From Chloroflexi bacterium CFX6 (GTDB taxonomy: Bacteria > Chloroflexota > Anaerolineae > Anaerolineales > Villigracilaceae), in assembly GCA_030263595.1 (NCBI GenBank), contig SZPG01000008.1, positions 1-64,000 of the forward strand: a stretch of DNA of 64,000 nucleotides, in the 5' to 3' direction. Under the pieces are notes generated by a model. That model did no database searches. It was given only the letters and a program-made list of their open reading frames with translations, and had not been told where the DNA came from. Positions 1 through 58,682 of this stretch are shown one piece after another. Numbering within the stretch: position 1 is the first letter of the stretch; the number at the start of each line of letters is the position of its first letter. The translations under genes and the position numbers were made by a program.

Positions 1-142
1 ACGCGGCGAAGGCGGTGAACGCCGAAAGGAGGATCGTCCCAAGCGGGGGAAACCCTCCCAGCCACAACAGGGCGACGAAGCCGGGCATGGCAAGGTCTAA
101 AACTCCGTGAGTGGTTCGGGAAAGCGCGAAGAAACGTTTCAT
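1..142 (-). CDS. UbiA-like prenyltransferase, N-terminal fragment
   Basis: Only the first 47 codons lie in the window; the gene runs off the left edge. The start is the ATG whose complement is at 140-142. The peptide opens MKRFFALSRTTHGVLDLAMP and continues into a hydrophobic helix. From memory this opening resembles one branch of the UbiA prenyltransferase superfamily, integral membrane enzymes that put isoprenoid chains on small acceptors. It lies downstream of the UbiG-like methyltransferase on the same strand, separated by a dispersed repeat. The diagnostic Asp-rich motifs are outside the window, so the family call rests on the N-terminus and on context. Confidence 0.55.
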   Translation of the reverse strand, partial: MKRFFALSRTTHGVLDLAMPGFVALLWLGGFPPLGTILLSAFTAFAA

Positions 143-163
143 TGAAAATATCTCCAGGGTCTT

Positions 164-273
164 TGTCGTTGCGAGTGAAGCGAAGCAATCCCCTCGTGTA
201 CGGAAGATTGCTTCGCCGCCCCGGTCTCGATACGGGCTTCGTCCTACTCGACCGACGGCGGCTCGCAATGACA
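164..273. repeat. Dispersed palindromic repeat, TCATTGCGAG family, copy 1
   Basis: The ends are inverted (GTCGTTGCGAG at left, CTCGCAATGACA at right), with inner arms GAAGCAATC and GATTGCTTC. It fills most of the spacer between the UbiG-like gene and the UbiA-like gene. Related copies occur at 17556-17650, 28646-28776 and 52909-53017. Confidence 0.8.
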
Positions 274-276
274 GAT

Positions 277-978
277 TTATTTCTTGAAATGCGCCATGTA
301 ATTCACGTCTTCCCTGTCCGCGGCGACCTTCCATTTGCGGGTAAGGGGATTGTACATCAGGCTGGCGAGGCGCACAAATTCCAGCCCCGCCCGGCGGTTC
401 CATGCCTTCATCTCGCTCGGGCGGATCAGCTTCGAATAGGTGTGCGTGCCGCGCGGCAGGAGGCGCAAAATGTACTCGCCTCCGACGATGGCAAACAGGA
501 AGGCTTTGGGCGTGCGGTTGATGGTCGAGTAAAAAGCACGTCCGCCGGGCTTCAGGGCTTTGGCGCACGAAGCGACGACCTTCGCCGGTTCGGGGACGTG
601 TTCCAGCATTTCCATGCACGTCACGGCGTCGTAGGTCCCCGCCTCTCTTTCGGCGAGGTCGTGGACGCTTTCGTAGCGATAATCAATTTGCAGACCCTGA
701 TCCTGCGCGTGCTGTCTTGCGACGTGGATGGACGCTTCGGACAAATCCAAGCCTGTCACCTGCCCCCCGGCCTTTGCCAACGCCTCGGAGAGGATCCCGC
801 CGCCGCATCCCACATCCAGGATCTTTGGGTTGGGCGGAAGTTGTTCCATGATGAAATTCGTCCGCAGCGGGTTGATGACGTGCAGTGTGCCCATCTCGCC
901 CTTGAGGTCCCACCAGATATCGGAGACGCGGTCGAACTTTTCGATCTCGTTGTGGTCTGCGTTCTCAAATGATTTCAT
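277..978 (-). CDS. ubiG: UbiG-like SAM-dependent O-methyltransferase
   Basis: A 233-residue class I methyltransferase. The SAM-binding motif I ILDVGCGGG is near residues 53-61, with VTGLDLS about 20 residues later and the post-motif MEMLEHVPEP. The N-terminus (FDRVSDIWWD, then LHVINPLR) is the signature of UbiG, which methylates hydroxyls in ubiquinone synthesis. The C-terminal YSKLIRPSEM and DVNYMAHF also fit UbiG. The start overlaps the end of the upstream cyclase gene by 14 bp, so the two are translationally coupled. Chloroflexota are generally menaquinone users, so in this operon it may methylate another phenol or cyclitol. The family call is strong; the substrate is unknown. Confidence 0.85.
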   Translation of the reverse strand: MKSFENADHNEIEKFDRVSDIWWDLKGEMGTLHVINPLRTNFIMEQLPPNPKILDVGCGGGILSEALAKAGGQVTGLDLSEASIHVARQHAQDQGLQIDYRYESVHDLAEREAGTYDAVTCMEMLEHVPEPAKVVASCAKALKPGGRAFYSTINRTPKAFLFAIVGGEYILRLLPRGTHTYSKLIRPSEMKAWNRRAGLEFVRLASLMYNPLTRKWKVAADREDVNYMAHFKK

Positions 979-2104
979 GTTCGATGTTTATCCTATCTTC
1001 TAAGGTTTTCACAGCGGACTCGATCTCCTCCGCGCGGACGTCGTTGAGAAAGACGCAGCCTCCGATGCCGCGCGGCATGGGGACGCGCTGCAGTCCGTTG
1101 CGGTGGTAGGTGCGCTCCGTCAGCGAAGCCCAGAGCAGGCGCGGGTCGAGGATCGAAGCGTCCAGTTCGAATCCCAGCGCGTCGGTCAGGCGGAAGATGC
1201 GATCCGTCTCTTCGTCGGATAAAAGATTGCGTCCGCGCGCGATCAGCGTGGAAATAAGAATGTCCAGCAGAACCGCCTCGCCGTGGAGGAGATGCGCCTC
1301 GTGCCGCGTCTCCAGGCCGTAACTGAAGGTGTGACCGAAGTCCACCTTGCGCGCCAAATCCTCCTCGAAGAGATTCGGTTCGAGTTCCTCCAGCATCCCC
1401 TCGATGGCGCGGTCGAGGATGACGCCGCCCTGCTCGTCCTGGAAATGCGCCTCCACGCTTTGCGCGCCGTGCGTTTCGAGCATTCGAAACAGGCAGGCGT
1501 CCTTGATGACGGCGAGTTTGATGATCTCGCACACGCCGTTCAGGATGTGGCGGCGCGGCAGGGTCTTGAGGAAGGATTTGTCGAGCAGGACGGTCTGCGG
1601 CGCGTGAAACGCCCCGAGTCGGTTCTTGTTGCCGTTGAAATTGAGACCGGTCTTGATGCCAATGGAGGCGTCCACGTAACCCATCAGCGTGGTTGGGACC
1701 TTGATGTAAGGCACGCCCCGGCGGTGACTTGCGGCGACGTATCCGACCAGGTCCGTCAGCACGCCGCCGCCGATGGCAATGATCGGCTCGTCGCGGCGGT
1801 GGATGGGGAAGGTGTCCAGTTCGCGCGCGAGGGCGAGATAACGGTCGAGGGTCTTGCTTTCCTCGCCGCCGGGAAAGGCGACGATTTTCGCCTCCACGTG
1901 ATGATAGGCAAAATACCCGCGGATCGCGGCGGCGTGATGTTTTTCCACGTTGCTGTCCACCACCACGAAGCGGCGGGCGTCTTCGATGCGCCCGGCGGAA
2001 AGCAACGCCCAGTTCTGCGGGTGGAAGAGGTTCGAAGCGGTGATGACCTCGTATTCGATGGTGTGCCGGTAGGCGACTCGTCGCGCGCTCATTCCATCCC
2101 TCAT
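965..2104 (-). CDS. Sugar-phosphate cyclase, 2-epi-5-epi-valiolone synthase-like
   Basis: About 379 residues of the dehydroquinate synthase superfamily, which binds NAD and a metal and cyclises sugar phosphates. IGGGVLTDLVGYVAA at 111-125, VPYIKVPTTL at 131-140 and KTGLNFNGNKNRLG at 151-164 resemble C7-cyclitol (valiolone-type) synthases more than AroB. Zinc-ligand candidates are the Glu in CEIIKLAVIKD and the His residues in VDFGHTF and LLHGEAV. Valiolone synthases use sedoheptulose 7-phosphate. The chosen ATG overlaps the luxS-like stop (ATGA); an alternative start four codons later (2092) has a better-spaced GAGGG. The downstream ubiG overlaps the stop. It could also be an EboD-type cyclase. 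No separate aroB is visible here, so a shikimate role is not excluded but looks less likely. Confidence 0.8.
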   Translation of the reverse strand: MRDGMSARRVAYRHTIEYEVITASNLFHPQNWALLSAGRIEDARRFVVVDSNVEKHHAAAIRGYFAYHHVEAKIVAFPGGEESKTLDRYLALARELDTFPIHRRDEPIIAIGGGVLTDLVGYVAASHRRGVPYIKVPTTLMGYVDASIGIKTGLNFNGNKNRLGAFHAPQTVLLDKSFLKTLPRRHILNGVCEIIKLAVIKDACLFRMLETHGAQSVEAHFQDEQGGVILDRAIEGMLEELEPNLFEEDLARKVDFGHTFSYGLETRHEAHLLHGEAVLLDILISTLIARGRNLLSDEETDRIFRLTDALGFELDASILDPRLLWASLTERTYHRNGLQRVPMPRGIGGCVFLNDVRAEEIESAVKTLEDRINIEHEII

Positions 2105-2580
2105 ACCACCTGCCGCCAGTTCGCTTTGGCGTCCAGCACCCTTCTGGCGAGCGCCTGCGCCATTTCGAGGCTGTGATTTTTGTAATTGCCGCATTGCGCG
2201 ATGTTGGCATAAGGGACCTCGCCCGCGACCAGGATGTCGTTCAGGATCTTTTCGTACGCGTCCAGGATGGCGTCGGCGCGCCCCTCGTTGAAGAGGATGA
2301 GGTAAAAGCCGGTCTGGCATCCCATGAGGCCGACGGAAATGAAATTCTGCGGCATGTACTTTTGAAACCCCCACAACAGGAAATGTTCGAAGGAGTGCAT
2401 TTCCGTGGAAGAAAGGAAGGTCGAGTTGGGCTGGTTGATGCGCAGGTCCACCGCGTAGACCGCGCCGCCGGTGGGTCCCTTTGTAGCCGCGCGCAATTTG
2501 ACGTGCGGGGCTTTCAACAGGCGATGATCCAATTCCCCAACCGCGCCGGCCTCCCAGCCGAGTTGAGTAACGTCTATCAT
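2101..2580 (-). CDS. luxS: LuxS-like S-ribosylhomocysteine lyase
   Basis: A 159-residue protein, the usual LuxS length. The zinc ligands are all visible: HSFEH (His62, Glu65, His66) and CGNYKNH (Cys130), plus the catalytic Cys88 in GCQTGFYL. LuxS cleaves S-ribosylhomocysteine to homocysteine and the autoinducer-2 precursor. The sequence is divergent outside these motifs. The start at 2580 follows AGGAGAGAGTT; an in-frame start 11 codons upstream lacks a ribosome site. The stop overlaps the start of the cyclase gene. Placement in a methyltransferase-containing operon may mean it recycles SAH-derived products, or that the fold has a new substrate here. Confidence 0.82.
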   Translation of the reverse strand: MIDVTQLGWEAGAVGELDHRLLKAPHVKLRAATKGPTGGAVYAVDLRINQPNSTFLSSTEMHSFEHFLLWGFQKYMPQNFISVGLMGCQTGFYLILFNEGRADAILDAYEKILNDILVAGEVPYANIAQCGNYKNHSLEMAQALARRVLDAKANWRQVV

Positions 2581-2606
2581 AACTCTCTCCTGTAAGTTGT
2601 TGTATC

Positions 2607-2628
2607 GCGACACGCTTCGCAGTGTCGC
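2607..2628. repeat. Small hairpin upstream of the luxS-like gene
   Basis: GCGACAC and GTGTCGC are inverted around GCTTCGCA. It lies 27-48 bp upstream of the luxS-like start, in the 119-bp spacer after the TIM-barrel gene. It could be a leader hairpin or a repeat fragment. Confidence 0.45.
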
Positions 2629-2681
2629 ATATTAAGCGCAAGATTTTGCAGATTAACAATTAAATCGGGCAATCCCCTTTG

Positions 2682-2750
2682 AACCACGGAGACACCGAGT
2701 CACGGAGTTTTAAATTCTTTATCTCTGTGTCTCCGTGTCTCAGTGGTTTT
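2682..2750. repeat. Dispersed palindromic repeat, CACGGAGACAC family, copy 1
   Basis: Inverted arms: GAACCACGGAGACAC at left and GTGTCTCAGTGGTTTT at right, with CACGGAG inside. A second copy is at 13611-13680. It overlaps the 3' end of the TIM-barrel gene and supplies its last residues and stop. Confidence 0.75.
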
Positions 2751-4013
2751 CTCTGGGCTTTTCCGTGCCAAGTTTATTGCTCGATTCAAATGCCTGTAAC
2801 TATCTGCGAGCGCCTTCTCCCACGAGGCGACGTGATGATACAGTTCGACGGAGGCGTAGCCGGAAAAGCCGTTGTCGGTCAGCGCCTTGAAACTTGCGGC
2901 GAAGTCCATCGTCCCTTCGCCGGGGATCTCGTGGAAGTGGACGATGCCGGTCAGCGTGTTCGCCACCATTTTGTCCATCAGCGGTTTGCCGTCCGCATCC
3001 TTCGCGCTGCGCAGGTAAATAACGATGGGACGCGCCCGTTCCAGCACGTCGTAACTCAGCCCCGGCACGGAGATGAGGTAAACGAAGATTTCACTGTCGA
3101 AGGGGGACGCGCCCGCGTACAGGCTGTTGTAATCCACGAAGGCGGGCGGCTTGGAAATGTCTGCCGACCCCAGGATGGATTCGATGCGCTTCCTTTGTCC
3201 TGCATCCGGCATCTCGTCGTGGAAATAGATCGGATGGTCGGGGTCAACCAGAAGATATTCGGCGGTCTCGGGGAAGTAGATCAGGTATTTGGCGAAGTTC
3301 AAATCCATCCTGAGACCGTCCGCCCATTTGACCAGTTTCAAGTTGTACCCCTCCCGCGAATCGGAAACGTGCAGGAATTTGGCGTGCGGAGCGGCTTTCC
3401 CCAGCGCTTCGAGATAATTCTGCTCCGAACAGTAGTTGTGATTCAAATCGAGGTGAAGTTGGAAGCGGGGCGAGCCGATCTCATTGACCAGGCTGATGCC
3501 CTGTTCGAGCGTCTCGATGTACATGCCCGGCTCCGGCTCGATCAGCAGGGTGATGTCCTCGTCGCCGCGCAGTTCCTCCAGGCATTGATGGATGCTGTCC
3601 ACCAGCAGTTCACGCGGGTTGACCGACGGGTTGCTCACGTGCTCGTCGCGGATGAATCCGCTTCCAAACGTGACGAGAGGCACGCCCAGCCTTCGAGCGA
3701 CCCGGATCCCGCGCTTGACCAGATCAATGCGCCGCTTGCGCCCCGCCAGGTCGGGACTCATCAACGACGGTTCGTGCGGACGCTGGGGCGTGAAGAAATG
3801 CGAGGCGGTCGAAACGCAGGCGGCTTTCACCTCGAGCGTATCGAGCCGCTTTTTGACCGCGTCGAGATACTCGTCGGTGATGTCGAACGGATTGAATTGA
3901 TCCCGGTGAAAGGAGAGTTCGATGCCCGGATACCCCGCCTCGTCCACGACCTCGATGGCGCGTATGAAATCCAGGTTCGTCAAGCCGAACGTGCTGTAAC
4001 TGAGTTTGATCAT
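2700..4013 (-). CDS. Sugar phosphate isomerase/epimerase-like TIM-barrel protein
   Basis: A 437-residue protein of the xylose isomerase-like (AP endonuclease 2) TIM-barrel superfamily. It opens MIKLSYSTFGL and has GYPGIELSF in the first repeat. Metal-ligand candidates are the Glu in LLIEPEPG, the Asp/His in LHLDLNHNYC, and the Glu in ASVELYHH. At over 400 residues it is longer than typical members (about 280), with an insertion around residues 215-330. The last 15 or so residues (TTETRRHRDKEFKTP) are encoded by a dispersed repeat and are probably not part of the fold. It is codirectional with the luxS-cyclase-ubiG genes 120 bp downstream and probably belongs to the same pathway. The substrate is unknown. 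Confidence 0.75.
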   Translation of the reverse strand: MIKLSYSTFGLTNLDFIRAIEVVDEAGYPGIELSFHRDQFNPFDITDEYLDAVKKRLDTLEVKAACVSTASHFFTPQRPHEPSLMSPDLAGRKRRIDLVKRGIRVARRLGVPLVTFGSGFIRDEHVSNPSVNPRELLVDSIHQCLEELRGDEDITLLIEPEPGMYIETLEQGISLVNEIGSPRFQLHLDLNHNYCSEQNYLEALGKAAPHAKFLHVSDSREGYNLKLVKWADGLRMDLNFAKYLIYFPETAEYLLVDPDHPIYFHDEMPDAGQRKRIESILGSADISKPPAFVDYNSLYAGASPFDSEIFVYLISVPGLSYDVLERARPIVIYLRSAKDADGKPLMDKMVANTLTGIVHFHEIPGEGTMDFAASFKALTDNGFSGYASVELYHHVASWEKALADSYRHLNRAINLARKSPEKTTETRRHRDKEFKTP

Positions 4014-4425
4014 CTCTGCCGCTCCAAAAATCGAAACCTTTCCGCCGCCGGTGTGGAGAAGCAGCCTCGCGCGAGTCGGAATCCATTCGGGTCGTGTTTT
4101 TCATCGCGTTTGGCGGCTTTCAGGCAAGGATGTTTGCGCCTCCTCCGTTGGCAATTGGCGATTTTACCATGCGGTTGCCGGGATTCTCTTCGACGCCCGG
4201 GGCGTCCCGCATCCTGAATATCTTTCCCTTTGACGTTCCCTTGCAGTGTCAATTTACCTTTTTGCCCTTCGCGGTGGAAAAAGACCTTTTGCAGTGGACT
4301 CATGCGGTTGAAACGGAGGATTCTCCGGTCGCTTCGCTCCCTCGGAATGACATTCATGCGGATGTGGGTAAACGCCGATGCAAATCACGCTTGCCGATTG
4401 ATTCCTCCTGTGTCATAATGAATAT
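4014..4425. other. Divergent intergenic region without a recognisable gene
   Basis: About 410 bp between the minus-strand TIM-barrel gene and the plus-strand membrane protein gene, so it should contain both promoters. A half-copy resembling the TCATTGCGAG repeat (CGCTTCGCTCCCTCGGAATGACA) is at about 4329-4351. Open frames crossing it have no ribosome sites or recognisable protein features. Confidence 0.5.
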
Positions 4426-7110
4426 ATGCACTGCCCACGGTGTAAGCATCCCGACTTCGTCTCGAGTGGGACTTGCCCCAAATGCGGCTTCCATGGGGAT
4501 CCCGATCAGATCGAAGAACTCTCGCGGCTGGAATGGCTTTTGAGGGAAATGGAAACGTGGGTCGGGCTGGGCATCCTCAAACAGACCCCCAAACGACTGC
4601 AAAAACATTACACGACCCGCCGGCAGGAACTCCTGACCGACCTGGGCTTATCCTACCTCCCCTTCACGCCTCGTGAAGCCGGGCAGGCATGGCGCGAACT
4701 TCGCCAGTATGAACTCCTCTTTGCAGAGATCGAAAAATGGCTGGCGAAGGGTTACGTCAAGACCGGCTTTCTCCCGGAATATCACGCCCGGTTGATCCTG
4801 CTGCGCGGTCGCATGGCGGATTATCGTGGTCCCCGGTATCCCGAATCCGATCGCGAAAGGCTGGACGAAATCAACTTCCTGCTGGAAGCCGTCCGGCAAC
4901 TCGAACGACAAAACGAGTTCACGTCATCGGATGCCGGATGGAACGTCGCCACTCCTCTTTCGGCTGAAAAAGCCAGACTGGAAAAGGTCCTTGCTCCCCC
5001 TCCCGAAATAAAGGAGGAAGTCAAAATCAAAACCGCCCCCGCGCAGGCTCAAGCCGCAGTCGCACCGGCAGCCGCACCAAAGCCCGCCGAGCCTCCCGCG
5101 CCGCGCCCGCCATTCAGGGAGTGGTTATGGCGTTCCATCCTCTCGGAGCGCACACTCCAGGCGCTGCTCTTCCTCGGCATCTTCCTGCTCTTCGTGGCGG
5201 GCATCTCCTTCGTCATCTGGGGCTGGGAGGATTTCTCCGCGCCGGTACGGGTGGCGATCCCGTTTGGGTTCACCGCGCTGTTCTTCGGTCTGGGCTGGAT
5301 CGTGCGCACCAGGACCCGCCTCTATCGTTCCGCCATCGCGCTCAGCGCCATCGCCGCGCTTTTGATTCCCATCGATTCCTACACCATCTACGCCAACTAC
5401 GGCTCGCCTCCTCAAGGCTTGCCCGAATTCTGGCTGATCACGTCGCTGGCGTGCCTGATCGCGTACATCCTTGCCGCCCTGCTCATCCAAAGCCGCTTCT
5501 TCGGATACATCACCGGCGCGGCGGCTGGCAGTACGATCCTCTCTCTTCTCGAAGTTTTCACGGACGTATCACAGGATTGGTATTCCGCCGCGTTATCCGC
5601 GCTTGCAGTCGGGATGATCCTTTTGGGGACACGGCTCTCGCGTCTGCCCCGACCCGGACGCTGGCGCGTGTTTTCCGAACCTTTTCGCTACCTGGCGCTT
5701 TGGATTCCCGCCGCGTCGATGCCTCTTTCGCTGGGGCTGCGACTCGTCACGCGCGACGCGTACGATTCCCTGCACTACGCCATGTCGGTGAATTGGTTCC
5801 TCGGCGGATTCATCTTCGCCTGGGGCGCGATCCATCATCGTTCGCGCAGTCTGGGGATTTTATCCGCCATGTCTTTGCCGGTATCCGTGTACATGGCGCA
5901 GGGCGCGCTCTTTTATCACACAGGGATCAACCCCGCCTGGCACGCCTTCGGGCTGGCATGTCTGACCCCGTTGTACTTGTACGCGGGTCACAGGCTCTTA
6001 TCGAACAAAGACGACCCCGTCCTTTCTTCCCACGGACAGACCGCCACGCGCTGGGGCGTTGTGTTGATCGTCGCCGCCGCGCTGCTTTCCCTCACCGACC
6101 TGAGAAGCGGAACCGCCGCGGCGGCGTCTCATACCATCCTGATCGGGAGCGCGACCCTGTTCGCCCTGCTTTGGCAACGACCTCGCTCCCTCTACGCCGC
6201 GTCCCTCTTCTCGTTCACCGCCTCCACCTTTGCAATGACGGAGTTGAACCTGTCGTTGAATCAACTGGGCGTGGGGTGGGCATCTGTGGCAATTCTTCTT
6301 ATTCTTCTCACGCTGAGACTTTCACGTAATCAGGAACAGATCGAGACGAGAAGACCCTATCTCCTTCCGCTCGTCACCTCTGCCTACGTTATCGCCGCGC
6401 TTGCAATCCTGCCCCCCATTTTCATTTATAACGAACACTTGCTTGCCTATGCCCTCGGCAACTGGATCGCCCTCTCGATATGGGGGGCGCATCTGTCCCA
6501 TCGCGGACAGCCCGGCTTTATCCCCATTCTCCAGACTGAATCAGGGAGACTGCGTTTCTTCAAACGCTTATCGAACACGGGGGCGATCTATCATTGGTTC
6601 ACGACATTGCCCCTTCCCTTCTGGGTGTGGATCGTCACGGAGAACAATGAATTCCCCAAACACATCCTGCCTTTGCTATTGGTCGCGCTCGCGTGGATCA
6701 TGGTCTTTGTCAGTTACTGGTTGAAGTTTACGAATAAAGCCTGCCGCCTCCCCTGGCGATTGACCGGACTGGCGGTCAGCGTTGCTGCGCCGATCGTTGC
6801 ATTCATCAATGCGCCGGATGGATACACCCCGGCGATCACCTGCTGGGGATCGGCATCCTGTATTTCGCCGACACGCTGGCGTCACACGCCTCTGCGGAGT
6901 TCTGCCCGGCCGGACTTGTCACCGCCTGGGGATTGTGGCTCATCCTCGACCGCGCGCGGGTGGATGGCGAAGTCGTCACGTTTGCGTTATGCCTCCTGGC
7001 GGCGATCTATTTCCTTGCGGGACTCGAAGCGGAACGCAGAAAGATTCCTATCGCGACTTACAAATTTCTGGCGCCCTTGTATCACACCGCGCACATCGTC
7101 TCCGTCGTGA
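4426..7110 (+). CDS. Giant zinc-ribbon multi-pass membrane protein, N-terminal part (frameshifted)
   Basis: Starts with a zinc ribbon (CPRC at 3-6, CPKC at 18-21), then a helical cytosolic region to about 170, an Ala/Pro-rich linker (about 195-225), and then one hydrophobic helix after another. The plausible protein stops near base 6840 (residue 805). Beyond that the frame gives Arg/Ser-rich sequence, while a different frame continues the membrane protein. One base appears to be missing around 6840-6841. With the next entry the intact product would be about 1955 residues with several dozen membrane segments. It recalls the large zinc-ribbon membrane proteins of Actinobacteria and Chloroflexota (SCO7613-like), of unknown function. 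Confidence 0.7.
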   Translation: MHCPRCKHPDFVSSGTCPKCGFHGDPDQIEELSRLEWLLREMETWVGLGILKQTPKRLQKHYTTRRQELLTDLGLSYLPFTPREAGQAWRELRQYELLFAEIEKWLAKGYVKTGFLPEYHARLILLRGRMADYRGPRYPESDRERLDEINFLLEAVRQLERQNEFTSSDAGWNVATPLSAEKARLEKVLAPPPEIKEEVKIKTAPAQAQAAVAPAAAPKPAEPPAPRPPFREWLWRSILSERTLQALLFLGIFLLFVAGISFVIWGWEDFSAPVRVAIPFGFTALFFGLGWIVRTRTRLYRSAIALSAIAALLIPIDSYTIYANYGSPPQGLPEFWLITSLACLIAYILAALLIQSRFFGYITGAAAGSTILSLLEVFTDVSQDWYSAALSALAVGMILLGTRLSRLPRPGRWRVFSEPFRYLALWIPAASMPLSLGLRLVTRDAYDSLHYAMSVNWFLGGFIFAWGAIHHRSRSLGILSAMSLPVSVYMAQGALFYHTGINPAWHAFGLACLTPLYLYAGHRLLSNKDDPVLSSHGQTATRWGVVLIVAAALLSLTDLRSGTAAAASHTILIGSATLFALLWQRPRSLYAASLFSFTASTFAMTELNLSLNQLGVGWASVAILLILLTLRLSRNQEQIETRRPYLLPLVTSAYVIAALAILPPIFIYNEHLLAYALGNWIALSIWGAHLSHRGQPGFIPILQTESGRLRFFKRLSNTGAIYHWFTTLPLPFWVWIVTENNEFPKHILPLLLVALAWIMVFVSYWLKFTNKACRLPWRLTGLAVSVAAPIVAFINAPDGYTPAITCWGSASCISPTRWRHTPLRSSARPDLSPPGDCGSSSTARGWMAKSSRLRYASWRRSISLRDSKRNAERFLSRLTNFWRPCITPRTSSPS

Positions 7111-10100
7111 TCCTGTTCCGAATCTACATTCGTCCGCTCGAGGAATTTGTCGGTGGATCCACGTGGACAGATGCGAGCCAACTCTGGGGCGCGGCGGATC
7201 AATTGCTTTTGGCGCTTGTCTATGGCTTGTTTGCCTGGGGACGCTGCCAGGAACGCTGGGGACACGTCGCCGCCTGGCTTGGGATGATCGGCGGCGGGTT
7301 CATCGCCATCGTCTACAGCCGCGGACACGGCTCGCTTGCCGCCAAAGGCGCGATCATCGCCGCGGCGATGGTGCTGGCGGAACGCGGACTGAATTACCTG
7401 AAGCAACGCGACACGCTTCGCAGGCGCGTCCGCGCGTTCTTCCGTTTGGCGTGGAGTTTGTTCCGGCGTCCGTTGCTCGTCGCGGGTTGGACCGCCTCGG
7501 TCGGGATCATCATCCTGGCTCTGGTCCGCAACCTGATCCTGCTGGGCGGCGGGCGGATTCAGCAAACCTGGGCGGCAATCGGACTCCTGATCGTCACCGC
7601 GCTTTATGCGCTTTCGGCGCGCATGTTCCGCAAGGCGCGCTTCGTCTGGTTCTCGGTCGTCGTCGTCTTTGCCCCGTGGACGATCCTCACCAACCTCGGC
7701 TGGTTTACGACGTTCGAGCCGACCCTGCCCGATTTCGCCGTCAGTTGGACGGCGCTGGCATGGCTGCTGTTCCTCGTCGGTTTGTGGGTGGCGCGCCGCG
7801 CGCCGCGCGCGTATGCAATCCCTTTGAAGACCGCGACCCACGTTTTGCTTCCCTTCTCGATGCTCTGGGCGGTCGCGAACACGGAAGCGAGTCTCTTTAC
7901 GGTTGGACTTTCGATTGCTCTTTACGTCCTCTCCGCGCGGTTCGATCACAACCAGTCCAAACAGTTGGGCGTGAAAGTAACCTCGCTTGGCGCGACCAAA
8001 TTCTTCTATCCCGCGCTGGGATTGATCCCCTTGTGGGCTGTGTATTGGCTGGACTATCTCTCGCCCTCCGCGCGGCACGAACATTTCGGCTTGATGCTTC
8101 TGGTCTTCGGCGCGCTGGGATTGGCATCCGGTCTCTGGCTGGAACGCATCGCGCCGCGCCCCGCCCGCCCTGAGCCTGTCGAAGGGTCCTTGAGACGCGC
8201 CTATGGATTGCCAGCCTATCTCACAGGCTACGTCTCGATCATCATCGGTACGATGCTGGTTGCCCATCTCTCGATTACACTGGCATGGGCGTTGCTGTAC
8301 GACGCCGTTTTGATGGTCGCGTCCGCGGTCATCTTCAGGAATTCATTGTGGCTGTATCCGGGAACGGCGCTTGCCGCGTTGTCGTTATTGATCGCGTTGA
8401 ATGAAGCGGGCGTTCCCGCCGAACGGCAGGGCTGGTGGCTGATCGGCTTGGCGGCGGTCCATCTGCTCATGGCTTGGGTCTTGCGCCGCGTTCGATTGAA
8501 TTCCTACGCTTCGGTCTTGATTGTCGCGGGCTTCGCGTTGACCGCGCTGGGCTTGCCTCCCTCGAGCCTCGATCAGACCGGCGCCATCTGGGGTTACGGA
8601 AGCGCGGCATTGCTCTACGCGGTCAGCGCCTTCTGGCTGCGCCAGCCGCTTCTCTTGACTCCCGCCTCCGCCTTGATCGTCATTCCGTATGCCAGCCTCA
8701 TCCAACGTTCGACGATCCCGAACGAATATTATGGCTTGAGTCTTTTCCCCGGCGCGTTACTCGCATTGTTCCTCGGCTGGGCGCTGGATCGCCGCTTCGG
8801 CGCGTGGACGGGCTTTCCCTGGAGAAGACCGAGCCTCTGGTTCGCGGAATTCGCAAAGAGATTGTTTCAATGGTGGGCGTTTCCGCTTTACGTTTTGGGA
8901 TTGGGATTGGCGACCGCCGCGCCCTTCTTTGCGGATGCGCGCGAGGACCTGATCGCCCTGAACTTCGTCCTGCTCGCCTCTTTCCACGGGTGGGCTGTGT
9001 ACCGTTTCAAATTGCGTTTCTGGCTTCTGACGGCTCTCCTCTCCGCGCATTACGCCCTGGGCTTCCTCCTTGAACATCTCGGATTATGGCGGAACGCCGG
9101 GGAAGCCTGGCTGCGCTTCCTGCCGTTGACCGTGATCCTGCTGGCCGGCGGATTGATCCTCGAAAGACGATTGAACGAGGGTTCGCCGCTCCACGCGAAA
9201 CGATGGTTTTGGGGATGGTCGCGTCCGTTTTATGTTTTCGTGATTCTCGATATTTTGCTCTCGCAGTTTGGCAGTCTGCGCGGGACGTTTGCCGGGGCGG
9301 AGGTATCGCTCGTCAATCTGCTGATGATCGCAGTGCTGGCGTCCGCGTGGAGGTCGTCGGGGCTGACGTATTTCAGCGCGTTACTCGGATTGGTCGCGTT
9401 GATGCAATGGCGCGCCGCGGCGGATTGGGCAGGCATCAACCTGCCGGCTCATCTCGCGGGGCTGGCTTTCGAGTACGGGGTTTTGGGATTTGGATACAGC
9501 CTTTTGAAACAGCGGTCAGGCTCGGGTGAGAACGAAGCGGAGTCCAATCCAATGCGGAGTTGGCATTCCGTATGGGAAATCCCATTGCAACGATCCGCGA
9601 TGCTCCTCTCCATCCTTTCGCTTGCGCTGGCGTTCATCCTGGGCATTGACCTTGCGAGTTGGAGCGTGCGCGCGCTCTTCGGGTTGCCGTTCCGCCAGAT
9701 CGTGGACGTGGAAACGGTTTACATGGCGATATGGACGCTGTCGCTGATCGGTCTGCTGTATGCGGCGGCGTCCGCGGTCTACAGGCGGATGAGGCTTGGG
9801 TATCTGGCGGTCGGGATGCTGCTGACGGGCTGGTTCCTGTATGCGTTCTACGTCAACGCGTGGGATAACCTCAGGCAGTTGCAATGGTATGCGCTGCCCG
9901 CCGGGTTGTATCTATTGGGGATCGGTTTTCTCGAATGGCAAAGAGGCGGCAGGACGCTGGCGCGCTGGCTGGATTACGCGGCGATATTGCTGTTGCTGGG
10001 TTCGCTCTTCTGGCAGACGCTCGTCTTTGGATGGGGGTTCGCGTTGATGCTGGGCGGCGAAGGGCTTGCGGCGTTCTGGTGGGGGAGCGCGCGGCGGTTG

Positions 10101-10295
10101 AGGCGATTCTTTTACACGGGCATGTCCGGCGTGATCCTTGCCGCGCTGGGGCAGTTGCTCAACGCGCTGCAGGAGGTGAACCAGTGGATCACGTTCGGTT
10201 TGATCGGCTTGATCCTGGTCGTGGCGGCGATCATCGTGGAGCGTAAACTCGAAGCGATCAAAGCCTGGCAACAGGTGTTGGAGACGTGGGAATGA
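6933..10295 (+). CDS. Giant multi-pass membrane protein, C-terminal part (frameshifted)
   Basis: Continuation of the preceding membrane protein in another frame. The coherent reading starts at about 6843 (LLGIGILYFADTL), before any start codon; the boundary given is a TTG that could serve as a start. Almost the whole 1120 residues are hydrophobic helices with short Arg/Glu loops. At 8168-8187 the gene contains the palindromic CCCTGAGCCTGTCGAAGGGT, read in frame as part of a PARPEPVEGS loop. The stop overlaps the start of the PrsW-like gene (ATGA), which suggests one operon. Either the genome copy is broken by a point indel or the assembly has an error. Confidence 0.7.
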   Translation: MWLILDRARVDGEVVTFALCLLAAIYFLAGLEAERRKIPIATYKFLAPLYHTAHIVSVVILFRIYIRPLEEFVGGSTWTDASQLWGAADQLLLALVYGLFAWGRCQERWGHVAAWLGMIGGGFIAIVYSRGHGSLAAKGAIIAAAMVLAERGLNYLKQRDTLRRRVRAFFRLAWSLFRRPLLVAGWTASVGIIILALVRNLILLGGGRIQQTWAAIGLLIVTALYALSARMFRKARFVWFSVVVVFAPWTILTNLGWFTTFEPTLPDFAVSWTALAWLLFLVGLWVARRAPRAYAIPLKTATHVLLPFSMLWAVANTEASLFTVGLSIALYVLSARFDHNQSKQLGVKVTSLGATKFFYPALGLIPLWAVYWLDYLSPSARHEHFGLMLLVFGALGLASGLWLERIAPRPARPEPVEGSLRRAYGLPAYLTGYVSIIIGTMLVAHLSITLAWALLYDAVLMVASAVIFRNSLWLYPGTALAALSLLIALNEAGVPAERQGWWLIGLAAVHLLMAWVLRRVRLNSYASVLIVAGFALTALGLPPSSLDQTGAIWGYGSAALLYAVSAFWLRQPLLLTPASALIVIPYASLIQRSTIPNEYYGLSLFPGALLALFLGWALDRRFGAWTGFPWRRPSLWFAEFAKRLFQWWAFPLYVLGLGLATAAPFFADAREDLIALNFVLLASFHGWAVYRFKLRFWLLTALLSAHYALGFLLEHLGLWRNAGEAWLRFLPLTVILLAGGLILERRLNEGSPLHAKRWFWGWSRPFYVFVILDILLSQFGSLRGTFAGAEVSLVNLLMIAVLASAWRSSGLTYFSALLGLVALMQWRAAADWAGINLPAHLAGLAFEYGVLGFGYSLLKQRSGSGENEAESNPMRSWHSVWEIPLQRSAMLLSILSLALAFILGIDLASWSVRALFGLPFRQIVDVETVYMAIWTLSLIGLLYAAASAVYRRMRLGYLAVGMLLTGWFLYAFYVNAWDNLRQLQWYALPAGLYLLGIGFLEWQRGGRTLARWLDYAAILLLLGSLFWQTLVFGWGFALMLGGEGLAAFWWGSARRLRRFFYTGMSGVILAALGQLLNALQEVNQWITFGLIGLILVVAAIIVERKLEAIKAWQQVLETWE
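8168..8187. repeat. Short palindrome inserted in a coding region
   Basis: CCCTGAGCCTGTCGAAGGGT contains near-inverted CCCT and AGGG ends. I know this motif as a dispersed element in many environmental genomes. Here it is read in frame in a loop of the giant membrane protein. Confidence 0.5.
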
Positions 10296-28645: not shown

Positions 28646-28776
28646 TGTCATTGCGAGCGAAGCGAAGCAATCCCCTCTTGCCAGGGAGAGACTCCCAAAA
28701 TAAAGGGATTGCTTCGCCCTCCTTCGTCTGCGCCGCCAACGAACGGCGGCTCCGCTCAGGACGGCCCGCAATGACA
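28646..28776. repeat. Dispersed palindromic repeat, TCATTGCGAG family, copy 3
   Basis: TGTCATTGCGAG at left and CCGCAATGACA at right; inner arms GAAGCAATCCC and GGGATTGCTTC. It fills the spacer between the two acyltransferase genes. Confidence 0.85.
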
Positions 28777-57887: not shown

Positions 57888-58682
57888 ATGGACGCGGAAA
57901 TCTACACCCAGGTAAAAGCCTCGATCAAACGCAGGCTGAAGATTGATCTCGAGAATTACAAGTCCGAGCAGATGAAGCGCCGCCTGGATTCGTGGCTGGC
58001 GCGTTCCCTCTCGCCCGACTGGAACGATTACTTCGACCGGCTTTCGCGCGATGAAACCGAACTGGAGCGATTCCGCAATTACCTGACCATCCACGTCACG
58101 GAATTTTTCCGCGATCCCAGCCGCTGGAACGCGCTGCGGGAAACCGTCCTGCCATACCTGATCCGAAACTCATCGGAAGATCACCGGGCTGACGGGTTGA
58201 AACTATGGAGCGCGGGTTGTTCCACCGGCGCGGAAGCATACAGCCTGGCGATGCTGATGGCTGAAGCCGCGCCGCTGCAAAAATATTCCCTGCTGGCGAC
58301 CGACCTGGATCGCGGCGCGTTGCTCAAGGCAAGATCGCGCGGACCCTATACCCAGGAGGATCTTCACAGCCTGGGCGCGGCGCTCAGACGGAAATACGTC
58401 ACAACGACCGCGCCTTATCACGTCCGCGAGAGTTTGCGGAAGAATATCCGCTTCGAGGAACACGACCTGCTGGCTGACCGCTTCGAAGGCGGCTTCGATC
58501 TGATCGTCTGCCGGAACGTCGTCATTTATTTCACGGCGGAAGCGAAAGAATCCCTGTATGCAAAGTTTTCCGCGGCGCTGCGTCCGGGCGGAGCGCTGTT
58601 CCTGGGCGGCACGGAGATCATCCCCGGCCCGGCGAAGTACGGCTTTCAAAACTTCGGCGTTTCGTTCTACAATAAAACCTGA
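57888..58682 (+). CDS. cheR: Chemoreceptor methyltransferase CheR
   Basis: 264 residues. N-terminal helical domain, VTEFFRDPSRWNAL, SAM-binding WSAGCSTGAEAYSLAMLM, ATDLDRGALLKAR and DLIVCRNVVIYF. Adds methyl groups to receptor Glu residues. Normal length, no TPR extension. Confidence 0.94.
   Translation: MDAEIYTQVKASIKRRLKIDLENYKSEQMKRRLDSWLARSLSPDWNDYFDRLSRDETELERFRNYLTIHVTEFFRDPSRWNALRETVLPYLIRNSSEDHRADGLKLWSAGCSTGAEAYSLAMLMAEAAPLQKYSLLATDLDRGALLKARSRGPYTQEDLHSLGAALRRKYVTTTAPYHVRESLRKNIRFEEHDLLADRFEGGFDLIVCRNVVIYFTAEAKESLYAKFSAALRPGGALFLGGTEIIPGPAKYGFQNFGVSFYNKT

Follow-up and report, generated by a model that had tools for sequence, protein, structure and literature searches.

A five-gene unit at the start of the window

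The window analysed here is the whole 64,000-nucleotide stretch that covers positions 1 to 64,000 (forward strand) of contig SZPG01000008.1 of Chloroflexi bacterium CFX6 (GenBank assembly GCA_030263595.1). Its first 4 kb carry one minus-strand unit of five genes, transcribed in the order TIM barrel, LuxS-like protein, cyclase, UbiG-like and UbiA-like protein. The first gene of the unit (4013-2700) encodes a xylose-isomerase-like TIM barrel of 437 residues (Pfam AP_endonuc_2, 122.9 bits). It is followed by the genes for a LuxS-like protein of 159 residues (2580-2101; Pfam LuxS, 114.5 bits), a sugar phosphate cyclase of 379 residues (2104-965; Pfam DHQ_synthase and DHQS_C) and a UbiG-like O-methyltransferase of 233 residues (978-277; Pfam Methyltransf_11). 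The scores of all these Pfam matches are above the cut-offs, and the UbiG-like protein also scores 262.7 bits on the NCBI UbiG model TIGR01983, whose cut-off is 102.95. The unit ends in the first 47 codons of a UbiA-superfamily prenyltransferase gene (142-1), which runs off the window edge and continues on contig C107 of the same genome.

The last four genes had been described in a first-pass annotation of this DNA as a single-strand chain, in which the luxS-like and cyclase genes share an ATGA, the cyclase and UbiG-like genes overlap by 14 bases and a repeat precedes the UbiA-like gene. All of this was found as described. The repeat, a 16-mer, lies in the spacer that separates the UbiG-like gene from the UbiA-like one (143-276, no strand assigned); it has three copies in the window (177-192, 28659-28674 and, with two mismatches, 58539-58554), compared to 0.12 expected. 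The TIM-barrel gene was correctly placed just upstream in that annotation, but it is a full member of the unit and not a mere neighbour.

The window starts at base 1 of its contig (C76). Taken alone, the 47-residue UbiA piece inside the window matched no family in the Pfam and NCBIfam scans. The end of C107 contains 99 bases (C107:4974-5072) identical to the window start, and the remainder of the gene was found there as a 283-codon frame (4219-5070, minus strand) that overlaps the window by those 99 bases. The C107 piece by itself scores above the Pfam UbiA cut-off, and the two pieces cover positions 1-47 and 16-297 of the profile. Because the exact overlap joins C107 to C76, the break at the window start is an assembly break, not a gene end, and the UbiA gene is complete in the genome.

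The gene order recurs in two phyla

The LuxS-like protein was searched against one genome per species, and the best 80 of 575 relatives' loci were examined. Nineteen of these 80 loci made up the cluster group. All five genes occurred in the same order and on one strand in 15 loci; two others were cut by contig ends (L014 and L049), and in two more the TIM barrel and LuxS-like protein were encoded in a single reading frame (L016 and L020). Among the remaining 61 loci, 60 had none of the partner genes beside the LuxS-like gene, and the last (L079) had a weak TIM-barrel match of 21% identity. The fifteen complete loci belong to Chloroflexota and Pseudomonadota (Thermomonas, Rhodanobacter, Spongiibacteraceae, other Gammaproteobacteria and Proteobacteria) and all come from metagenome-assembled genomes (MAGs), as do most cluster loci. 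The order read in the window is thus conserved in relatives, and a chance grouping was rejected because the five-gene order occurs in two phyla and a short form of it in a third.

Surveys, which are samples and whose counts each include the genome on which the survey was centred, yielded more loci. Among 400 Chloroflexota genomes the TIM-barrel gene was detected in 12, every one of them from the window's family, of which 25 genomes had been sampled, and the 11 positive genomes other than the window's all carry the five genes; one locus among them (L126) is the same as L004, with equal coordinates and identities. In the class of the Rhodanobacter MAG, 3 of 369 genomes were positive and the two added ones carry all five genes; in the order of Zooshikella the figure was 3 of 293, with one added genome carrying all five; and in the phylum of Desulforadius it was 1 of 299.

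When the pairwise distances were compared between the five proteins in 27 complete loci, the correlations were r = 0.86-0.94; this set leaves out the cut or short loci L003, L014, L016, L020, L049 and L137 as well as the duplicate L126, and it includes two near-copies (L007 and L128). When families overlapping the five genes in other frames were excluded, no further neighbour family was shared by more than 7 of the 30 loci. Most of the proteobacterial cyclases are nested among the Chloroflexota copies in the cyclase tree, with L017 and L018 outside. This nesting is as expected of lateral transfer, and the five genes may form one self-contained, horizontally spread pathway.

The cyclase belongs to the valiolone-synthase kind

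A profile search against the PDB gave 405.6 bits to 4p53 (ValA), 330.9 bits to 5tpr (DDGS) and at most 190.9 bits to AroB. On the AroB model TIGR01357 the cyclase scores 225.4 bits, below the cut-off of 305, and on PRK06203 it scores 214.4 (cut-off 333), compared to 578 for EboD. In a tree of 53 sequences, the cluster cyclases formed one clade (100/100) outside AroB, on the EEVS/DDGS side and apart from 20 AroB and three EboD sequences at 99/97; EboD and AroB are long branches, and their join may be false. The tree in PMC5133447 differs in this respect and places EboD near EEVS and DDGS.

Twenty-five alignment columns separate EEVS from DDGS, in the sense that the four EEVS references agree and the two DDGS references agree but the two groups differ from each other; this set was drawn from these six references, separately from the published 14-site fingerprint mentioned in PMC4426668. 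The cluster cyclases are EEVS-like at 20 of these columns, DDGS-like at one and neither at four, and because the EEVS letters are kept at 20 of the 25, the substrate is predicted to be sedoheptulose 7-phosphate. A separate AroB above cut-off was also found in 21 of the 24 cluster genomes; the exceptions are G255, G403 and the window's own genome (G000), which is 90.92% complete. An AroB function or shikimate operon was rejected on account of the position of the cyclase outside AroB and of this separate AroB. The assignment of the cyclase to the valiolone-synthase (EEVS/DDGS) kind, with mostly EEVS letters, is well supported by its sequence and agrees with what had been proposed for it at the outset.

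Two cyclases annotated as sedoheptulose 7-phosphate cyclase, on plasmids of Agrobacterium vitis and Rhizobium rhizogenes, have ROK-family and TIM-barrel genes nearby (loci L171, 10041-10883, and L172, 8544-9365). The pairing of cyclase and TIM barrel thus recurs outside the cluster, as seen on both rhizobial plasmids. The streptol paper (PMC8599487), consulted for the role of TIM barrels beside EEVS, contains none of the terms isomerase, epimerase and TIM barrel.

The LuxS-like protein keeps its catalytic site and has lost a substrate residue

LuxS is regarded as a family with a single reaction, and its presence is read as a sign of autoinducer-2 signalling. The cluster proteins form their own clade (100/99) in the LuxS tree, and among the ten NCBIfam LuxS models listed the window's protein falls below every cut-off, the best score being 125.4 for a cut-off of 208. 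Residues were compared, in Bacillus subtilis numbering, between 15 cluster rows and 24 canonical rows (every third of 61, making 21, plus three from solved structures). The result showed that His54, Glu57, His58, Cys84, Cys126, Arg39, Asp37 and His11 are kept in 15/15 cluster rows. Asp78 is lost in all 15 (Ser in 14, Cys in one), and position 65 is Arg in four rows, Lys in three and another residue in eight, whereas Arg65 and Asp78 are invariant in the 24 canonical rows and in the full 61. Glu57, Arg65 and Asp78 of true LuxS have been reported as important for substrate binding (PMC2656534).

The window's genome has one LuxS-family gene, the cluster copy. The S-adenosylhomocysteine hydrolase AhcY is above cut-off in 21 of the 24 cluster genomes (not in G405, G408 and G411). 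Pfs passed in one only (G064, in two pieces), with weak matches below cut-off in 13 further cluster genomes; of 14 control genomes, only 7 gave a match above the cut-off of the Pfs model, which a diverged Pfs could therefore escape. Given the frequency of AhcY and the single Pfs above cut-off, the LuxS-like protein is unlikely to recycle the methylation by-product, a role that had been suggested for it earlier. The alternative offered with it, a new substrate, fits the loss of Asp78. Taken together, the protein combines an intact catalytic site with a changed substrate residue, and most of its genomes show no sign of the enzyme that normally supplies LuxS with its substrate. No re-tasked LuxS was found among the open-licence papers listed by the literature searches.

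The TIM barrel resembles sugar isomerases and epimerases

Glu159, Glu161, Asp189, His192, His215, Asp218, His359, His361 and Glu390 of the TIM barrel are invariant in 15/15 rows, and the metal site, to which E159, D189, H192, H215 and E390 are assigned, is intact. Compared to 2zvr, the protein has an insert of about 140 residues. Its structure model (predicted local distance difference test, pLDDT, 91.1) matched keto-sugar epimerases, isomerases, a 2-hydroxy-3-keto-glucal hydratase and 5hmq in the PDB, the last being a fusion of a TIM barrel and a hydroxyphenylpyruvate dioxygenase. Profile matches include IolI, UlaE and AsbF, and IolE weakly. The fold matches gave no sharper reading of the reaction, epimerase and dehydratase not being separable by them. 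Two-domain dehydroshikimate dehydratases, which have the make-up of 5hmq, and AsbF convert 3-dehydroshikimate to protocatechuate, a dehydration that makes the ring aromatic.

An imperfect inverted repeat, CTCGGTGTCTCCGTGGTTC, lies at the 3′ end of the TIM-barrel gene (2681-2749), with three near-copies compared to 0.01 expected. It appears to extend the frame, which is 437 residues long in the window and about 413 in several relatives.

The UbiG-like and UbiA-like proteins

The UbiG-like protein aligns over its length with Escherichia coli UbiG (4kdc, 310.8 bits). In UbiG, an insertion at residues 165-187 binds membrane lipid (PMC4796655), and this insertion is present in 27/27 cluster rows. 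Because it is kept, the UbiG-like enzyme is suggested to work on a substrate that sits in the membrane and thus already carries its prenyl chain. A quick tree placed six UbiG sequences of the ubiquinone type in a clade (Shimodaira-Hasegawa-like approximate likelihood ratio test, 99) to which no cluster row belongs. When the tree is viewed from two distant outgroup rows, this ubiquinone-type branch lies next to L017 and L018 (87), and the cluster rows may therefore not form a single clade. A second UbiG above cut-off accompanies that of the cluster in three proteobacterial genomes (G403, G406 and G411), and the cluster copy is the sole one above cut-off in the proteobacterial MAGs G404, G408 and G409.

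The UbiA-like proteins score 76-102 bits on Pfam UbiA in three full-length relatives (cut-off 34.2) and fall far below the ubiquinone and other NCBIfam cut-offs listed. The two Asp-rich motifs are kept, with N61, D62 and D69 in the one and D199 and D203 in the other in 15/15 rows. Position 65, which is Asp in the common motif, is Gly in 14 of the 15 rows and Ala in one. The structure model (pLDDT 88.8) is closest to the archaeal lipid synthases 6m31 and 7bpu, which prenylate an alcohol.

Each of the 25 sampled genomes of the window's family has 5-10 UbiA-superfamily matches, whether it carries the cluster or not. Such matches are thus uninformative, and the presence of UbiA was rejected as an argument for a respiratory quinone.

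A short form without the lipid genes

Desulforadius tongensis (Bacillota) encodes a 592-residue protein with TIM and LuxS domains, followed by a cyclase gene and then by a gene on the opposite strand; judged by eye, an open reading frame (ORF) for a LytTR-like response regulator lies divergently upstream. No UbiG above cut-off was found in the Desulforadius genome. In Zooshikella harenae (Gammaproteobacteria), a 535-residue fusion of TIM barrel and LuxS lies at the end of one contig, and at the end of another lies a cyclase that falls in the cluster clade and is followed by an MFS-like ORF (by eye); the fusion and the cyclase are likely neighbours. Its sole UbiG above cut-off sits on a third contig. 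Neither UbiG nor UbiA genes were found beside TIM-LuxS and cyclase in the two genomes, a negative that concerns these loci, UbiA elsewhere not having been searched. The single-frame fusion of TIM barrel and LuxS is thus present in two isolates of different phyla. A single frame of cyclase and UbiG was seen in one MAG (L049) and could be a frameshift.

The TIM barrel, LuxS-like protein and cyclase therefore look like the core of the pathway, and UbiG and UbiA like a lipid-making extension. Because the short form has LuxS without adjacent UbiG or UbiA, the LuxS-like protein would act before prenylation and methylation.

A proposed pathway and its rivals

The product is most likely a prenylated, O-methylated C7-cyclitol lipid derived from sedoheptulose 7-phosphate, with the LuxS-like enzyme acting on the cyclitol. 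We put the probability of this explanation as a whole, horizontal spread included, at about 0.5. The prenylated, methylated, cyclitol-derived lipid of the first-pass annotation remains the best general reading. The steps would probably run in the order cyclase, TIM barrel and LuxS-like protein, UbiA-like and UbiG-like enzyme. The cyclase would close sedoheptulose 7-phosphate to 2-epi-5-epi-valiolone or a close isomer, a step well supported by sequence. The TIM barrel and LuxS-like protein, which are fused in two lineages, may then act in succession on the ring ketone. On S-ribosylhomocysteine, LuxS shifts the carbonyl from C1 by way of C2 to C3, after which the thiol is lost from C5. 2-epi-5-epi-valiolone has its ketone at C1, hydroxyls on C2-C4, and on C5 a leaving hydroxyl and a CH2OH group. 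Because this is the same carbon run as in the LuxS sugar substrate, the LuxS-like protein could shift the ketone as far as C3 and so drive out the hydroxyl on C5. For the TIM barrel, isomerisation of the ring is one possible role; removal of a second water, as by IolE-type and AsbF-type barrels, is another. The UbiA-like enzyme would then add a polyprenyl chain, and the UbiG-like enzyme would O-methylate the prenylated product at the membrane; for these two steps the enzyme class is evident from sequence, and the order is a proposal.

The ring may become aromatic or stay alicyclic. After loss of the C5 hydroxyl, the hydroxyl on C1 likewise stands beta to the ketone, now at C3, and a second elimination there would lead to a trihydroxybenzyl alcohol; a single elimination would give a gadusol-like enolone. 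Both ends would suit a UbiG-type enzyme, and O-methylation of gadusols by a partner enzyme is known (PMC4426668). An aromatic ring, and with it a ubiquinone-like head made from sugar, is a clear minority possibility. In its most specific version, a LuxS-family enzyme moved to a C7-cyclitol ketone and a TIM-barrel dehydratase would together give a phenolic ring, from which prenylation and O-methylation would make a redox lipid resembling ubiquinone, its head group supplied by the pentose phosphate pathway instead of chorismate; this we regard as speculative and rather unlikely.

Several points weigh against the cyclitol-lipid explanation. The cluster is known from genes alone, and several of the references are annotations only, among them three of the four EEVS references, which are plasmid genes annotated 'sedoheptulose 7-phosphate cyclase'; the cyclase tree gives an unresolved fork of the cluster clade, ValA, three annotated cyclases and two DDGS. 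The LuxS carbon map is based on chemical reasoning, and hydroxide leaves less readily than thiolate. The TIM barrel resembles epimerases more than dehydratases, so that the reaction assigned to it is a guess, and the closeness of the modelled UbiA-like protein to 6m31 and 7bpu would fit an alicyclic ether no less than it fits an aromatic product. The UbiG of G404, G408 and G409 might also serve ubiquinone, unless these MAGs are incomplete, and the linkage of the Zooshikella genes is suggested by two contig ends only. Lastly, the cyclase step could come after those of the TIM barrel and LuxS-like protein.

This last point can be developed into a different pathway, in which the two proteins rearrange a sugar phosphate into a cyclase substrate other than sedoheptulose 7-phosphate. 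They are the first genes of the operon and are fused in two genomes, and the relatives of the TIM barrel include sugar-phosphate epimerases such as UlaE. However, the EEVS letters of the cyclase point to sedoheptulose 7-phosphate, a common metabolite for which no special supply is needed, and TIM-barrel genes also lie near the annotated sedoheptulose 7-phosphate cyclases of the two rhizobial plasmids; such an upstream role is thus unlikely. The short form raises the question of whether the core makes a small diffusible signal or antimetabolite, which the added UbiA and UbiG would anchor in the membrane. The MFS-like transporter ORF after the Zooshikella cyclase and the LytTR-like regulator ORF upstream in Desulforadius would fit such a product, but only two genomes have the short form, the link of these neighbours to the core is putative, and a signal in those genomes would not conflict with a lipid in the five-gene form. 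We consider it a fairly distant possibility.

The remaining two alternatives keep the LuxS-like protein or the cluster within known systems. A true S-ribosylhomocysteine lyase clearing the by-product of the methyltransferase beside it would explain the LuxS fold with its complete metal and catalytic site and the presence of an S-adenosylmethionine-dependent methyltransferase in the same operon, and the weak Pfs matches, together with the poor performance of the Pfs model in the controls, leave some room for it. It is nevertheless very improbable, considering the distribution of AhcY and Pfs, the uniform loss of Asp78, the short form that keeps LuxS without adjacent UbiG or UbiA (Desulforadius having no UbiG above cut-off at all) and the robust fusion, which joins LuxS to the TIM barrel and not to the methyltransferase. 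A diverged ebo cluster, with cyclase, UbiA and TIM barrel as EboD, EboC and EboE and the other genes exchanged, shares the three enzyme classes and a proposed isoprenoid-cyclitol product (PMC5133447), the tree in the same paper sets EboD close to the valiolone-synthase group, and the cluster cyclase profile matches EboD at 187-188 bits. For comparison, three ebo loci from a Chloroflexota genus were used, which hold EboE (468.6 bits), EboD and a UbiA-like gene closest to the EboC and SCO3242 models, below both cut-offs; this EboC-like reference scores 120.5 on the EboC model (cut-off 250) and may be broken, which makes it the weakest part of the comparison. The results showed that the TIM, UbiA, LuxS and UbiG profiles match nothing in these loci at E up to 10, and profile comparison with the UbiA and TIM barrel of the cluster gave probabilities of 1.0% for the UbiA-like protein of the ebo loci and 3.2% for EboE. 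The EboE model, with a cut-off of 250, gives the TIM barrel 10.4 bits, the cyclase is well short of the PRK06203 cut-off, and EboD and the cluster cyclase are split in the tree, even if EboD is a long branch. Descent from ebo is thus hardly likely, and the parallel drawn earlier with ebo is one of enzyme classes.

Relation to known systems and significance

As first noted, the cluster matches no ebo, ubiquinone or shikimate operon. Compared to ebo, LuxS-like and UbiG-like genes take the place of the other ebo genes, the cyclase is in a different branch of the present tree, and profiles detect no relationship of the TIM barrel to EboE or of the UbiA-like protein to the EboC-like one. An EboC homologue, Ubi-297, preferred quinoline acids in vitro (PMC9235831). 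Nearest in logic is the BE-40644 pathway of Actinoplanes, a precedent in which the EEVS product is later prenylated, presumably by a UbiA-superfamily enzyme (PMC5133447); the account in that paper mentions no LuxS-like or UbiG-like part, and the likeness is one of description. In the gadusol and mycosporine pathways (PMC4426668; Nostoc plasmid locus L174), a sedoheptulose 7-phosphate cyclase is followed by an O-methyltransferase. The cluster differs from them in its UbiG-like methyltransferase and in cyclase letters that are EEVS-like rather than DDGS-like, and prenylation is not mentioned in the account of PMC4426668.

Ubiquinone biosynthesis has prenylation and O-methylation in common with the cluster, whose UbiG-like protein is above the TIGR01983 cut-off and carries the membrane-binding insertion. 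It differs in that a cyclase, known from no chorismate-derived route, is part of the operon, that the ubiquinone-type UbiG sequences exclude the cluster rows and that the UbiA-like protein is far below the ubiquinone cut-offs. With true LuxS, the S-ribosylhomocysteine lyase, the LuxS-like protein shares the fold, the HxxEH motif and the catalytic Cys and Glu; it differs in its separate clade, the lost Asp78, the rarity of a Pfs above cut-off in its genomes and its position adjoining, or fused to, a TIM barrel. The cluster thus appears to belong to the isoprenoid-cyclitol kind, its new feature being a putatively re-tasked LuxS.

Among the open-licence papers listed by the literature searches, the five genes were found together only in Table A1 of PMC8756737, where genes annotated as xylose isomerase-like, LuxS, EEVS, UbiG and UbiA adjoin an unusual nirS in Anaerolineales SURF MAG 42; a link to denitrification would be conjectural. 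In the passages of that paper that concern them, LuxS and EEVS appear once each, in this table, and LuxS is annotated as S-ribosylhomocysteine lyase. Such an annotation of the cluster protein could mislead quorum-sensing surveys. Because its catalytic site is preserved, its substrate residues differ and it has a fusion partner, this clade could also serve as a test system for moving LuxS chemistry to a new substrate. The predicted product would be a membrane lipid class common to unrelated bacteria and, if its head is aromatic, its route would lead to a quinone-like lipid and be invisible to genome surveys of known quinone pathways.

Neighbouring genes

Divergent from the cluster, on the plus strand, two long overlapping ORFs for membrane-protein-like products of 894 and 1120 residues lie in different frames at 4426-10295. 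Judged by eye, they look like a single protein that either a frameshift or an error of assembly has broken in two near 6.9-7.1 kb.

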